From Aromatoleum toluclasticum ATCC 700605 (GTDB taxonomy: Bacteria > Pseudomonadota > Gammaproteobacteria > Burkholderiales > Rhodocyclaceae), in the NCBI RefSeq assembly GCF_000378245.1, contig NZ_KB899512.1, forward strand, positions 1-64,000: DNA of 64,000 nucleotides, read 5' to 3'. A program made the position numbers and the translations under genes. This document shows, one piece after another, positions 49,947 to 56,711 of this stretch. The notes below the pieces were generated by a model, which searched no databases, was not told the DNA's origin, and saw only the letters and a list, made by a program, of their open reading frames with translations. The stretch's first letter is position 1. Each line of letters opens with the position of its first letter.

Positions 49947-51614
49947 CTATGCGCGCCGGGCGGCGCCATACGGCGGCAGCGAACTGAGGCGCGCATCCTC
50001 GACCGGCCCGCCGACGGTGAAGTGGTAGAGACTCTGCCATTCGCCACCGGCGAGGCCCAGCAATTCGTGCATCGTGTCGTCGAAGAAGCAGCCGATACCG
50101 GTACCGCGCAGCCCCGCCGCCTCGGCCTCCAGGTACAGCATGTGGCCGAGCAGGCCGCATTCGCGGAAGAGCTGCGCATAGCGCCACGGCTCGCGCGCGA
50201 CGAGCCCCGTGTGCGCGAGCATGCCCAACGCGAAGCACGAATCGGCAGCGATCTCCTGATGACAGCTGACGAGCTGCGCCGTCGCACGCAGGTCGTAGGG
50301 AATCAGCAGGTAAAGCGGCAGCGGCGCGGGGCCCGTCTTGCGCCACAGCCAGTCCTCGCGCATCGCCCCGCGCAGTTCGGCGAGCGCCGCCGGATCGCGC
50401 ACCAGCACGTAGAGCCCCGGTTCCAGCCCGTCGACGCGATGCACGAAGATCGCCGGATGCACTTGCGCCGGCCACGGCCAGCCCGACCACGGCGGCACGC
50501 CGGCGCGCGGCAGCAGCGCATCGAGCACGGCGAAGAAGGTTTCGGCTGCCATCGTCGTCACGCCGTCGAAAGCGACCGCACTGCGGCGCCGGCGCGCGAG
50601 CGTCGCGAACGGAGGATCGAGGGCCGCGGGCGCGGGCAGCGCTGGCGTCGGAAGCGAAAGTGCCGGTGCGGCGGAGGTGCGCGGCTTGCGCGCGGCGGCA
50701 TCGACGACGGCGATGTCCGGCCAGTCGACATGCGCGGAACTCAGGCGGTTGGCGTGTCCGTGCCAGCCGGCCTGCCCTGCGAGGGCGAGCAGCGCATCGA
50801 CGTCGATCCCGCCCTCCGTCGCACCGAGCTGCAGCAGCACCTCGGGCGCCTCGCGCTCGGCGCCGTCGAAGTCCGCCGCGCGATCCAGCCCCGCGAGGCG
50901 CGCGATGTCCTCGTCGCCGGCACGGTCGAGCACGCGCGCCGGCCAGCCGAGCGCCGCGGCGGCAAGCGTCACCGCGGCCACCGCATGGCCGCAGTCGTGC
51001 TGGCAATAGCGCCATGCGCGCATGCCGTACTTCCACGCCTCGCGCCAGTGGATCGAACTCAGCGCGACCAGCACCCCCTGCCCGCCGAAGGCCCTGGTCC
51101 AGTCCACCTCCCAGCCCGCCTCCCTGCCCGCATTTGCGTCGTCCGGCGGCGCTGCGCGCTGCTCCAGCACGTGGTCCCGGCTCAGATAGTGATGCACGCC
51201 GGCCGGGATGCCGGGCAGCGCCGGCGCGATCAGGTAGCCCTCGGTCGGATGCAGGTTGCCGCTCGACGGATTGCAGCGCAGCGCCCAGCGCGAGCCGCCG
51301 AACGACTTCCATGCCGACAGCGCGAGCGAAAGCTCGAACAGGATGCCCACGTGCTCGCGGTCGAAGGGCGCGGGCGGCGGCAGCTCGCCGCGGCGCAGGG
51401 CGGCGTAGCGCGTCGCGAGCCCATCCGCCGCGAGCGGCAGGATCGTGCGCACGGCCCCCTCCCAGCAGCGCCACGGATCCGGCTGGTTCGCCCAGTCGAG
51501 GCGCCCCGGCCCCGGCGCGTAGCGCTCCGGCCGATGCTTGCTATGCTCATGGTAGGCTTGCACGGCGGCGGCCTGCCCGCCCTCCCGTGACGCGGTTTCC
51601 GGTTCTTGCGCCAT
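49947..51614 (-). CDS. SagB/ThcOx-family protein with two nitroreductase-like domains
   Basis: 555 residues from the ATG at 51614 (GAGGGGG upstream); an ATG at 51635 would add 7. Two flavin-dependent nitroreductase-like domains occur in tandem: the first contains LSLALSAWKSFGGSRWALRC and NPSSGNLHPTEGYLI, which is the SagB/ThcOx signature; the second starts near residue 345 with LARRRRSAVAFDGV and has HQEIAADSCFALGMLAHTG and GTGIGCFFDDTMHELLGL. SagB-type enzymes oxidise azolines to azoles in ribosomal peptide toxins. No cyclodehydratase, precursor peptide or exporter gene is near. Divergent from the DM13 gene. Confidence 0.85.
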   Translation of the reverse strand: MAQEPETASREGGQAAAVQAYHEHSKHRPERYAPGPGRLDWANQPDPWRCWEGAVRTILPLAADGLATRYAALRRGELPPPAPFDREHVGILFELSLALSAWKSFGGSRWALRCNPSSGNLHPTEGYLIAPALPGIPAGVHHYLSRDHVLEQRAAPPDDANAGREAGWEVDWTRAFGGQGVLVALSSIHWREAWKYGMRAWRYCQHDCGHAVAAVTLAAAALGWPARVLDRAGDEDIARLAGLDRAADFDGAEREAPEVLLQLGATEGGIDVDALLALAGQAGWHGHANRLSSAHVDWPDIAVVDAAARKPRTSAAPALSLPTPALPAPAALDPPFATLARRRRSAVAFDGVTTMAAETFFAVLDALLPRAGVPPWSGWPWPAQVHPAIFVHRVDGLEPGLYVLVRDPAALAELRGAMREDWLWRKTGPAPLPLYLLIPYDLRATAQLVSCHQEIAADSCFALGMLAHTGLVAREPWRYAQLFRECGLLGHMLYLEAEAAGLRGTGIGCFFDDTMHELLGLAGGEWQSLYHFTVGGPVEDARLSSLPPYGAARRA

Positions 51615-51669
51615 CCCGTCCCCCTCGCGACTCATCGCGCCACCGCCTCAGCACAGGAGCCCGATAGCG

Positions 51670-53148: not shown

Positions 53149-53473
53149 CGTTTACGCCCGCCCCGATCCCCTGCGGCCGATCCGGCCACGGCCCGACCAG
53201 ACGCGCCGGAAAAAGTAAGCAGATGTATCAACGCACTCCCAGACGCGGCCAAGTGTCGCCATACGGCGACACTTGGTGACTTTCCGATTGCCACCTGCAT
53301 CGCATGATCACGTCGTAGAAGACCACCCTGCGGGCCTCCGGACAATGCCATTGCAATAGAATGGTTATTCTGTAAAAAACCTTTGCATATTAAGCACATC
53401 CCGTCGTCAAAGGCTAAAGTTCAGCCCTATTTTGCCGTAACTGCTCACATGGTCGGCGCACGTCCCCGACCGT

Positions 53474-53563
53474 ACTGAAAAGGGCAAACCCGTCGAAAGA
53501 CGGGGACGCAAAGTCACCGGTTTAAAAGGCTTAGGCCTCATGACAGCGGGACTGCCAGGTTAC
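53474..53563 (+). ncRNA. Cyclic-di-GMP-I (GEMM-I) riboswitch aptamer
   Basis: The conserved core reads AGGGCAAACC (53481-53490); a 6-bp stem CCCGTC/GACGGG (53489-53494 with 53499-53504) is capped by the GAAA tetraloop (53495-53498); then GGACGCAAAG (53504-53513), the ligand-contacting element; a second arm (53514-53552); and the closing GCCAGGTTAC (53554-53563). These blocks appear in the order and spacing of the Vc2-type aptamer. It is oriented toward the metalloprotease gene, whose start codon is 110 bases after the aptamer. Confidence 0.93.
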
Positions 53564-53607
53564 GAGAATCCGGATGGATCGAAAGGTCCCGCCATCTCAC
53601 CTGTTCG

Positions 53608-53670
53608 CCGCGCCTTGGCGCGGGATCCGCAGTACTCCCTGTCGTTGTTGAAAGTTTTACGGGGAGTATT
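53608..53670 (+). promoter_or_regulatory. Expression platform candidate: hairpin plus SD-sequestering stem
   Basis: A 7-bp hairpin CCGCGCC-TT-GGCGCGG spans 53608-53623; no U tract follows, so it is not an ordinary terminator. Then AGTACTCCC (53631-53639) can pair with GGGAGTATT (53662-53670), a 9-bp stem with one G-U pair. The second arm contains the Shine-Dalgarno GGGGAG (53661-53666) just before the ATG at 53674. Translation control is therefore the natural reading. Confidence 0.6.
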
Positions 53671-53673
53671 GCA

Positions 53674-55656
53674 ATGAAATCGAACACCACCACCAACGCG
53701 CTGCGCCACCGTGCAACCCGCCTTGCGCGCCTGGCCGGAACCGGCCTCTTCACGGCGCTGCTCGCGTTTTCGTCCGCAACGACGGTTTCGGCCGCACCTG
53801 TACCGGCGGCTGACGGCAGCGAAGCCGCCCTCGGCACCACCCTGGCCTCCAAGGCGGCACGCGCGGAGCAGCTGACCCAGTCCCTCGCGGATCTGCACGC
53901 CCAGTACCGCGCCGCGCCCACCCACCAGCAGCCCGCACGGCTCGATGAGCTGGCCGCCGCGATTGCGGAACGCAAAGCCCTCCTCGCCGAACTCATCAAG
54001 AACGACCCCGCCTCCGCGCTGCGGCTCGCCCTTTCACCCAGCGTGCGCGCCGGCATGCCCGCTCAGGTACGCAACGCCCTCGAACAGCATGTGGACGTCG
54101 CCGGCGAACTCGAGGTGTTCTACGAAGAGTATCCGAACAAGAAGGCACGCCTGGTTCACTACCTGCGCACCCCTCAGGGCCAGCGCATTTCCCTGCACTT
54201 CAAGACCCAGCCTCCCAGCCTGCTCACCGGTACCCAGGTGCGCGCCAAGGGCGTCCAGCTGGACAGCTCGATGGCCCTCGAGTCGGGCGAAACCAGCCTG
54301 ACCCTGGCCGCCAAGGGCGGCGCCACCGGCGGCAGCAACGGTGGAACGCCGGCCCCGGGCCCCAGCGCCACGGGCGAACACAGGACCCTGGTTGTGCTGG
54401 TCAATTTCCAGGACAACCCGATCCAGCCCTACACCCCGGATTTCGCGAAGTCCGTCCTGACCACGACCAACGACTATTTCCTCGAGAACTCGCACCAGCA
54501 GATGTGGCTGAACGCCGACGTCGCGGGCTGGTTCACGATCGCCAACAGCTCCAGCGTGTGCGATACCAATGCGATCGGCACCCAGGCCCAGGCGGCAGCG
54601 TCGGCAGCGGGATACAACCTGTCCGCTTACACCCATCTCGTCTATGCCTTCCCGCAGATCGCCTGCGGCTGGTGGGGACTGTCGTCCGTGGGTGGCAGTC
54701 CGTCGAACACGTGGATTACCGGCGAACTCAAGATCGGCGTGACGGCGCACGAACTCGGACATGCCATTGGCCTGTTCCACTCGCATTCGAATGACTGCGG
54801 CGCCGACACCCTCGGGGCGACCTGCACGACGTATGAGTACGGCGACCAGTTCGACATGATGGGCTCCTCGAGCACCGGCCACTACAATGCCTTCCAGAAG
54901 GAGCGCCTGGGCTGGCTGAATACGTCCTCCACCGCGCCGATCACTACCGTCACGAGCGACGGCGTCTTCACCCTCGAACCGTACGCCGCCAGCGGGACGG
55001 GCCCGAAAGCCCTGAAGATTCCGAAAGGCATCGACCCGCTCACCGGACAGCAAGCCTGGTACTACGTCGAATTTCGCCAGGCAGTGGGCTTCGACAGCGT
55101 GCTCGCGGGCAACACGAACGTGCTCAACGGCGTGCTGATCCATACCGCCACCAGCTTCAATGGCAACAGCGCGAACCTCCTCGACATGACGCCCAACAGC
55201 GGTACCTCGCTGTATCTGGACTGGAAGGATCCCGCGCTGGTGGTCGGCGGAACTTTCACGGATCCGGCTTCGGGCGTGAGCATCACGTCGGATGTGGTGT
55301 CCGCAACGCAGGCTGTGGTCACAGTGCGGTTCGGTTCAGGCGGCTCCACCTCCTCCGCGCTGCTGAGCGCGACCGGTTCGACCAGCCAGACCACCTACAC
55401 CCGTGGCCAGACGGTCTATCTGACGGCGAACGTGAATGCCGGCGGCGTGCCGGTGGCCGGCGCCACGGTGTCCTTCACGGTGACCAAGGCCAACGGTTCG
55501 CAGGTCAAAGGCAGCGCGACGACCGGAAGCGACGGCAAGGCCCTGTACCAGTTCCAGCTCAAGAAGCCCGACCCCGTCGGCACCTATCAGACCGGAATGG
55601 TCGCGGCCTTCAACGGGCAGTCCGCAACCACCGCCGTCTCATTCAACGTGCAGTAA
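53674..55656 (+). CDS. Secreted M11 (gametolysin)-like zinc metalloprotease with C-terminal Ig-like domain
   Basis: 660 residues. Signal peptide (hydrophobic stretch about 20-40, SA-AP cleavage). A pro-region of about 200 residues contains a coiled coil. The catalytic domain has HELGHAIGLFH (His359, Glu360, His363, His369), then YEYGDQFDMMGSS with the Met-turn and GHYNAFQKERLGWL, which fits the M11 family. A Ser/Gly-rich linker leads to a C-terminal bacterial Ig-like domain (TRGQTVYLTANVNAGGVPVAGA) of about 95 residues. It is expected to be exported and to cut extracellular or surface proteins. Expression is under a c-di-GMP riboswitch. A bidirectional terminator follows. Confidence 0.87.
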   Translation: MKSNTTTNALRHRATRLARLAGTGLFTALLAFSSATTVSAAPVPAADGSEAALGTTLASKAARAEQLTQSLADLHAQYRAAPTHQQPARLDELAAAIAERKALLAELIKNDPASALRLALSPSVRAGMPAQVRNALEQHVDVAGELEVFYEEYPNKKARLVHYLRTPQGQRISLHFKTQPPSLLTGTQVRAKGVQLDSSMALESGETSLTLAAKGGATGGSNGGTPAPGPSATGEHRTLVVLVNFQDNPIQPYTPDFAKSVLTTTNDYFLENSHQQMWLNADVAGWFTIANSSSVCDTNAIGTQAQAAASAAGYNLSAYTHLVYAFPQIACGWWGLSSVGGSPSNTWITGELKIGVTAHELGHAIGLFHSHSNDCGADTLGATCTTYEYGDQFDMMGSSSTGHYNAFQKERLGWLNTSSTAPITTVTSDGVFTLEPYAASGTGPKALKIPKGIDPLTGQQAWYYVEFRQAVGFDSVLAGNTNVLNGVLIHTATSFNGNSANLLDMTPNSGTSLYLDWKDPALVVGGTFTDPASGVSITSDVVSATQAVVTVRFGSGGSTSSALLSATGSTSQTTYTRGQTVYLTANVNAGGVPVAGATVSFTVTKANGSQVKGSATTGSDGKALYQFQLKKPDPVGTYQTGMVAAFNGQSATTAVSFNVQ

Positions 55657-55697: not shown

Positions 55698-55733
55698 AAC
55701 TCCCGCTGGTTCCGGCAACCAGCGGGAGTTTCC
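55698..55733. terminator. Bidirectional terminator between the protease and DsbA-like genes
   Basis: A perfect 14-bp stem AACTCCCGCTGGTT (55698-55711) with AACCAGCGGGAGTT (55717-55730), loop of 5, flanked by A residues on one side and T residues on the other. It can serve both convergent genes. Confidence 0.9.
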
Positions 55734-55764
55734 ATTTAGCACTTCCCCGCCTGCGAGCGACGAC

Positions 55765-56547
55765 CTACTGCTTGCTCTCCGTGAGCAGCTTGTCGAGCTC
55801 CTGCTTGAGCAGCGCGTAGGCTTGCGCCCCCCGCATGATGCGCACGTTCTTCATGTTGCCGTCGACGCTCATCCCCAACAGCAGGGTCGGTGTTCCGGTC
55901 ACGCTCAACTTGCGGCCCTCGGCGATATCGCCGCGAATGCGTTCGACGTACTTGCCGCTCTCCAGGCATTGCTTGAACGATCCCGCATTCATGTCCAGGG
56001 CCGTGGCGTGGTCCACGAGCCGCTCGACTGCGAGCGCCTGCTGGTTGGCGAAGAGGCGGTCGTGCATTTCCCAGTACCGCCCCTGGTCCCCCGCGCAGTG
56101 CGCCGCCTCGGCGGCCTTCAGAGCCTGCGGGTGGATGGACTCAAGGGGGAAGTCACGAAATACGTAACGCACCTTGCCGGTGGCGATAAAGTCCTTGTCG
56201 ATCTGCGGCAGCGAATTGTCGGCATGGCGCTTGCAGAACGGGCACTGGTAATCGGAAAACTCCATCACGGTGAGCTGCGCGTCCCGCACCCCCTTGAGCG
56301 GTGCGTCGCCGATCGCGACGACGGCATCGATGGATTGCACGAGCGGCGGCGGCGGTGGCGGCATGCGCGCCTGGAGCTGCTTTTTGATTTCGTCGAGATC
56401 CTTGCGCAGGGCGTCCTGGCTCTGCCTGACGGCATCCACGTCGCGGCGCAACTTTTCCATCTCGCCTGCCTTCTGCGCCACGGCTGGCGCAGACAAACCC
56501 GCAAGCGACAAACCCGTTATCGCCGCGCATAGCGTCATTCGATTCAT
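55765..56547 (-). CDS. Exported DsbA/Com1-like thioredoxin with N-terminal coiled coil
   Basis: 260 residues. A signal peptide (cut near AVA-Q, residue 24) is followed by a helical coiled-coil segment (EKLRRDVDAVRQSQDALRKD...), a proline run PPPPPP at 63-68 and a DsbA-like thioredoxin domain: MEFSDYQCPFCKRH with CPFC at Cys102-Cys105 and the cis-proline in TGTPTLLLG. The coiled coil suggests it works as a dimer or trimer, as in DsbG or suppressor of copper sensitivity proteins. It is encoded between two genes for secreted proteins, one of them cysteine-rich; it may fold that protein (inference). The start is the ATG at 56547. Confidence 0.87.
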   Translation of the reverse strand: MNRMTLCAAITGLSLAGLSAPAVAQKAGEMEKLRRDVDAVRQSQDALRKDLDEIKKQLQARMPPPPPPLVQSIDAVVAIGDAPLKGVRDAQLTVMEFSDYQCPFCKRHADNSLPQIDKDFIATGKVRYVFRDFPLESIHPQALKAAEAAHCAGDQGRYWEMHDRLFANQQALAVERLVDHATALDMNAGSFKQCLESGKYVERIRGDIAEGRKLSVTGTPTLLLGMSVDGNMKNVRIMRGAQAYALLKQELDKLLTESKQ

Positions 56548-56600
56548 GGCATCACTTCCGTGTGTGTGATCAAGCGGCTTGAATTGCCGGTATGTGCGAA

Positions 56601-56711
56601 CCCCCTCGATCAGTTGCCCGATCAAGGGGGTCCGAACGCTTTTGCATTTATTCCAAGTCCCCCCCCACGGGGGGGCCCGCCGGGTCTCTTCCAGGCTTAA
56701 GGAAGAGACCC
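56601..56711. repeat. Three consecutive hairpins in the gap between the DsbA-like and DUF11-like genes
   Basis: 1) CCCCCTCGATC (56601-56611) with GATCAAGGGGG (56620-56630), one mismatch. 2) A run of C then G (56659-56676) able to form a 7-bp stem. 3) A perfect 11-bp stem GGGTCTCTTCC (56682-56692) with GGAAGAGACCC (56701-56711). None has an obvious U tract on the minus strand. They lie after the DUF11-like stop and before the DsbA-like start and may stop read-through or protect mRNA ends. Confidence 0.6.

Follow-up and report, generated by a model that had tools for sequence, protein, structure and literature searches.

The second messenger c-di-GMP acts through many proteins to keep swimming and sticking apart. 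In Clostridium difficile, a c-di-GMP-I switch is reported to exert negative control over the secreted zinc metalloprotease ZmpI (CD2830) (PMC6200980). In Vibrio cholerae, Vc2 on tfoY is reported as a translational OFF switch, which limits translation in its c-di-GMP-bound state (PMC7371385, PMC9262584), and its G20 as the selectivity position against 3',3'-cGAMP (PMC9262584, PMC6274999), while Vc1 on gbpA reportedly mediates positive regulation by c-di-GMP (PMC4744006). In Bdellovibrio, FliA is described as driving many attack-phase genes, including proteases, and merRNA, a c-di-GMP riboswitch RNA, as reaching massive expression during that phase (PMC3627812).

Here we analysed a window of 64,000 nt from Aromatoleum toluclasticum ATCC 700605 (the window being the whole stretch of DNA examined, to whose coordinates all positions refer) and scanned it in full with cmscan against Rfam 15. 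The RF01051 (c-di-GMP-I) match was the sole one at or above the gathering score in the window (86.7 bits against 35, E 9.5e-16), with all 87 model positions covered and no non-standard pairs marked. It is also the only copy in the host genome (5,924,795 bases searched, E <= 0.001). An earlier note on this DNA had proposed a c-di-GMP-I riboswitch at 53474-53563, 110 bases ahead of an M11-like secreted protease gene. The Infernal/Rfam result bears out the class; the span was off by no more than four bases, with a final block that extends 4 nt beyond the Rfam model, and the distance from the aptamer end to the protease ATG at 53674 measures 114 nt, which places the aptamer in the protease 5' leader (Table 1). 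An RNA switch ahead of the secreted protease gene is thus real, and its membership of the c-di-GMP-I class is confirmed at the level of sequence; such an aptamer would be expected to bind c-di-GMP. The equivalent of Vc2 G20, which by numbering rather than by an alignment to Vc2 we take to fall at AGGGCAAACC in the window, would be a G.

Table 1. Features of the protease locus, in window coordinates.
Feature	Position	Strand	Basis or remark
Sigma28 (FliA)-type promoter: -35 TAAAGTTC (53415-53422), 11-nt spacer, -10 GCCGTAAC (53434-53441)	53415..53441	+	flagellin-trained matrix
5' hairpin (GGTCGG...CCGACC) between promoter and aptamer	53451..53471	+	present in three orthologues, with a weaker form in G048
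c-di-GMP-I (GEMM-I) riboswitch aptamer	53473..53559	+	RF01051, 86.7 bits, full length
Aptamer P3 3' strand GACAGCGGGACTGC, alternative partner of the anti-RBS strand	53542..53555	+	duplex with 53629-53643, -16.2 kcal/mol
Small GNRA-type hairpin in linker	53576..53589	+	fold; paired in four orthologues
G+C-rich hairpin in linker, no T run behind	53608..53623	+	fold; no terminator-like site there
Anti-RBS strand GCAGTACTCCCTGTC	53629..53643	+	no differences among four orthologues over its first 14 nt
RBS strand, Shine-Dalgarno GGGGAG (53661-53666), in 14-bp sequestor hairpin	53659..53672	+	fold
Secreted M11-type metalloprotease, 660 aa	53674..55656	+	PF05548; signal peptide assigned by visual inspection
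Terminator-like stem-loop and T-rich tail behind the protease gene	55710..55737	+	1 found vs 2.3 expected in shuffles, weak

The protease identified in the earlier note stands as well, with a Peptidase_M11 (PF05548) match over residues 293-492 (37.3 bits, cut-off 21). The zinc motif HExxHxxGxxH is present as HELGHAIGLFH at residues 359-369 (54748-54780), and H359, E360, H363 and H369 are invariant across 14 homologues. The N-terminus is propeptide-like, and an Ig-like stretch occupies residues 571-658 at the C-terminus, where Pfam finds MG2 (22.2 bits) and Big_1, both under cut-off. The predicted structure, examined for a metzincin fold, has a mean pLDDT of 71.1 (below 50 at residues 371-393). 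Its top structural matches in the PDB are to the Amuc_1438 glycopeptidase, whose E of 1.6e-8 goes with a TM-score by query of only 0.17, and the viper venom protease ecarin ranks 32nd; a PDB sequence search returned nothing beyond weak matches to bone morphogenetic protein 1 (E 0.066). The protease gene probably forms a transcription unit of its own, as the next gene (ORF 55765-56625, minus strand) is convergent and follows a terminator-like stem-loop. Elsewhere in the window, a SagB-family peptide dehydrogenase/nitroreductase lies at 49947-51635 on the minus strand (TIGR03605, 84.8 bits, cut-off 78.4).

Aptamer and protease are kept together in all four close orthologues, host included, as are the linker hairpins and the RBS hairpin. 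Within the genus, the protease is present in 3 of 17 genomes (host included), each time with the aptamer directly upstream, and in the family sample a protease match was found in 3 of 150 genomes. The close orthologues comprise A. toluvorans Td21 (Rhodocyclaceae, Betaproteobacteria; 89% protein identity), Azoarcus sp. Aa7 (86%), and a genome of another genus, G048, whose protease is 80% identical and likewise preceded by the aptamer. Only the window's protease was scanned with Pfam, the other three M11 assignments resting on their identity of 81-89% to it. One locus (L031) is matched best by the sister model RF03167 (c-di-GMP-I-GGC), with RF01051 scoring 85 bits at the same site. G003 encodes a 43% homologue without an aptamer nearby, and at 12 more distant homologue loci (L033, L065, L213-L219, L223-L225; homologues at 27-47% identity) Rfam gave no c-di-GMP-I match in the fetched stretch, a scan from which L220-L222 (partial matches, E about 3e-4 to 5e-4) were left out.

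Upstream of the aptamer, the protease leader seems, by its sequence, to be transcribed from a flagellar-type (sigma28) promoter, with a start that we infer to lie near 53448. The site scores 21.8 with a matrix for which flagellin promoters from the family served as training set, within the range of the training sites (7.5-28.1). It is present in all four orthologous leaders, reading TAAGGTTC/GCCGTAAT in G048. The host genome encodes FliA (318.4 bits, cut-off 201) and has two Flagellin_N matches, the stronger of which carries the same promoter type, TAAAGTTT-N11-CCCGTTAA, 90 nt ahead of its ATG. A pattern built from the promoter site itself was dropped because it was circular and, at one mismatch, occurred less often in the genome than its backward control (8 vs 24), a count that goes against the preferred reading below; the flagellin-trained matrix replaced it. 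Between promoter and aptamer lies a further hairpin that is perhaps a 5'-end stabiliser, though statistically weak (z about -1.5). At six other loci (L004, L005, L084, L087, L094, L104) dissimilar sequences each form a hairpin between a sigma28-type promoter and the aptamer. As a common feature of protease leaders the hairpin was set aside as too weak, with a mean z of -1.45 for M11 (n=4) and -1.64 for S8 with sigma28 (n=10) vs -0.56 for 102 others without sigma28.

A sigma70-like site (9/12 matches, 0.3 expected) also occurs at 53540-53569, inside and just past the aptamer, and could bypass it by driving a shorter transcript. Such a bypass would suit an aptamer that is vestigial or whose binding has no effect, with the protease constitutive or otherwise controlled, and regulation of the protease by c-di-GMP is itself read here from sequence and folds. 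Against this stands the retention of aptamer, linker hairpins and RBS hairpin in four of four close orthologues at 80-89% protein identity, and we consider a non-functional aptamer very improbable.

The same matrix was then applied to the 130 nt ahead of 157 distinct c-di-GMP-I aptamers of the Rhodocyclaceae, drawn from the best 132 of 142 family matches (the ten weakest left out) and all 29 genus matches. For training, 31 flagellin upstream regions were tried, two of them without a recognised start, and 20 of the other 29 were kept. To be kept, a site had to agree with an E. coli-like consensus at 9 or more of its 12 positions, so the matrix is not independent of this consensus; the host's own flagellin is among the 20. 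At a threshold of 11 or more, sites were found upstream of 28 of the 157 aptamers, vs 0/157 reverse complements, 1/157 reversed sequences and 2/1228 windows further upstream. A hand-weighted consensus used earlier gave a similar answer (14/157 at score 10 vs 0.2 expected from shuffles). The 28 positive loci span 15 of 41 genera, and since near-copies occur among the 157 (e.g., L045/L046, L084/L087, L096/L138) and related species inflate the counts, the independent events are fewer than 28. Outside the family, where 48 other genomes had a match, 29 loci besides the window were scored; a sigma28-type site occurred at 1/29, equal to the reverse-complement control (1/29), with 0/216 in other windows. 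The link between sigma28 and aptamer is therefore a habit of the Rhodocyclaceae in our sample and not of the riboswitch class. A 4.7-Mb gammaproteobacterial genome (G716) has 15 c-di-GMP-I matches, many of them unusually long aptamers of about 110 nt.

Sorted by downstream gene, sigma28-type sites precede 4/4 M11 proteases, 10/23 S8 subtilases, 7/20 DUF1631 genes and 7/110 of the rest. Downstream reading frames were called by a simple rule, some surely wrongly, and one of the 157 loci had none. The S8 denominator is 23 because the cluster has 24 members, in 23 of which Pfam finds S8, the remaining one being a PilZ protein (L113 by sequence). Pfam searches of 31 selected downstream proteins gave S8 in 23 and Reprolysin_4 in 7, and among the matches listed (25 of 49 families) Reprolysin_3 appeared in 4 of 101 other downstream proteins, which may include further peptidases. 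Peptidase-like genes, the four M11 included, thus stand behind at least 38 of the 156 aptamers that have a reading frame, provided that there is no double counting. DUF1631 proteins stand behind 20/157 (3 of the 20 Pfam-scanned), and this recurrence, in seven cases with a sigma28-type promoter (L146, L163, L006, L134, L080, L096, L089), hints that DUF1631 acts in the motile-sessile switch. Two aptamers, L070 (G003) and L079 (G094), precede short FliE-looking proteins (FliE was counted in 2/101 downstream proteins, the loci being assigned by sequence), because of which a flagellar gene itself may be under a c-di-GMP-I switch. We see an even chance that in the Rhodocyclaceae sigma28 and a c-di-GMP riboswitch are repeatedly wired in series, forming a regulon (secreted M11 and S8 proteases, DUF1631 proteins and others, in 15 genera of our sample) that needs a finished flagellum and low c-di-GMP, i.e., a surface-exit programme. 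If true, this pattern would provide a ready gene set on how matrix or adhesin cutting is timed to departure, and on why a double check is used.

Behind the aptamer, a 14-bp hairpin (53629-53642 / 53659-53672; -23.3 kcal/mol as a duplex) buries the GGGGAG RBS. Among the four orthologues, the loop between its strands drifts and the RBS strand shows one-sided changes, with one mismatch each in Aa7 and G048; covariation was discarded as a proof of the hairpin, no double-sided change having been seen in these four. The only competitor of the RBS strand that we found for the anti-RBS strand is the aptamer's own P3 strand. With the RBS constrained to be unpaired, the lowest-energy fold contains this aptamer:anti-RBS helix, at -98.0 vs -108.5 kcal/mol for the unconstrained fold; the forced alternative fold comes to -101.8 kcal/mol. 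How well the aptamer strand pairs with the leader is only mildly unusual (41, 97, 43 and 141 of 1000 shuffles as good in the four orthologues); in Azoarcus Aa7 its best leader partner is not the anti-RBS strand. Against the window's anti-RBS, the native aptamer strand ranks third among 130 distinct aptamer strands.

In transcripts that stop immediately short of the RBS strand, the aptamer:anti-RBS helix has a mean pair probability of 0.92 (window), 0.59 (A. toluvorans), 0.91 (Aa7) and 0.81 (G048), whereas with the RBS strand included and without ligand the blocked form reaches 0.88-1.00. An OFF switch at equilibrium is not supported, because the blocked form wins without ligand and the forced alternative fold, at -101.8, is 6.7 kcal/mol worse. 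The folding model predicts instead that an OFF decision would be taken during transcription, since the aptamer:anti-RBS helix forms in transcripts that end before the RBS.

The same parts could also make an ON switch, in which c-di-GMP frees the RBS and sessile cells produce the protease, e.g., for matrix remodelling or for digesting surface-bound protein. A ligand-free equilibrium fold that blocks translation is what an ON switch requires, and there is precedent for the sign: Vc1 is reported to raise downstream expression with c-di-GMP (PMC4744006), and one C. difficile class-I switch to accompany increased expression (PMC6200980). However, as the P3 strand is the sole competitor found, ligand binding should free the anti-RBS strand for the RBS rather than occupy it, and the sigma28 promoter agrees with low c-di-GMP. 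We therefore regard an ON switch as unlikely, if the most serious of the alternatives. The sigma28-type promoter and the RBS-burying hairpin together suggest the OFF direction, with the protease withheld at high c-di-GMP, a direction that we infer from fold predictions, promoter logic and precedent.

Control need not fall on translation, as the long leader with its several hairpins might let the switch act on transcription or RNA stability. The RBS hairpin, which is stable with or without the rest of the leader, would then be a constant brake. No intrinsic terminator was found in the leader, so Rho or RNases would be needed, their access being set by the linker hairpins. An invariant anti-RBS strand with two possible partners points to translation instead, and we hold control at the level of transcription or stability to be improbable.

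Our preferred reading, which we consider somewhat probable, is a translational OFF switch behind a flagellar promoter, i.e., a two-level AND-NOT gate on one secreted protease, consisting of transcription by FliA and a c-di-GMP-dependent block of translation. Sigma28 (FliA), active after completion of the hook-basal body, would transcribe the protease gene. With c-di-GMP bound, the P3 strand would be locked in the aptamer, the anti-RBS strand would pair with the RBS strand, and translation would stop; at low c-di-GMP, the aptamer strand could hold the anti-RBS strand during RNA synthesis, so that the RBS stays accessible for the time that ribosomes need to load. The two levels together would leave production of the protease mainly to motile, low-c-di-GMP cells, that is, to swimmers with a low biofilm signal, in which it may cut matrix or adhesins on departure from a surface, or feed the cell. 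One leader would thus read both the state of the flagellum (via FliA) and the level of c-di-GMP (via RNA), with an extracellular protease as the output.

The earlier note had further proposed that the RNA switch acts rather than the LapD/LapG route. This wording is not supported, as the host genome also has a match to C93 (LapG-type) peptidases (PF06035, 45.7 bits, cut-off 27), and because of this match the two routes may, judging from gene content, coexist, with the RNA route as an addition. What that note said of the aptamer class, the gene and their arrangement in cis is retained, the last being conserved in all four close orthologues including the host; it had missed the promoter and the RBS hairpin and had left the direction of control open.

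Among the known systems, Cdi-1-12 on ZmpI/CD2830 of C. difficile is like the present locus in placing the same aptamer class ahead of a secreted metalloprotease. The clostridial switch works by a terminator. In contrast, the platform here looks translational, no intrinsic terminator having been found in the leader, the promoter is sigma28-like, and the protease has an M11 match, a propeptide-like N-terminus and an Ig-like C-terminus. Vc2 is also a class-I switch, but the target, tfoY, is described as a regulator gene with four promoters, and the available portions of PMC7371385 and PMC9262584 make no mention of a sigma28 promoter there. Vc1 shares with our locus a secreted-protein target, gbpA, which differs in being reported as an attachment protein under positive control. 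In Bdellovibrio, merRNA is described as lacking a conserved downstream gene, and its table entry in PMC3627812 gives no FliA promoter, whereas here promoter, aptamer and gene stand in series. Among the matches listed from the open-licence PMC literature, no title or abstract start combined, in cis on a protease gene, a c-di-GMP riboswitch with a sigma28 promoter; PMC3627812 comes nearest. The aptamer class and a metalloprotease under a c-di-GMP-I switch are thus known, while an arrangement that puts a sigma28 promoter, a riboswitch and a secreted protease gene in series seems to be new in the literature searched.
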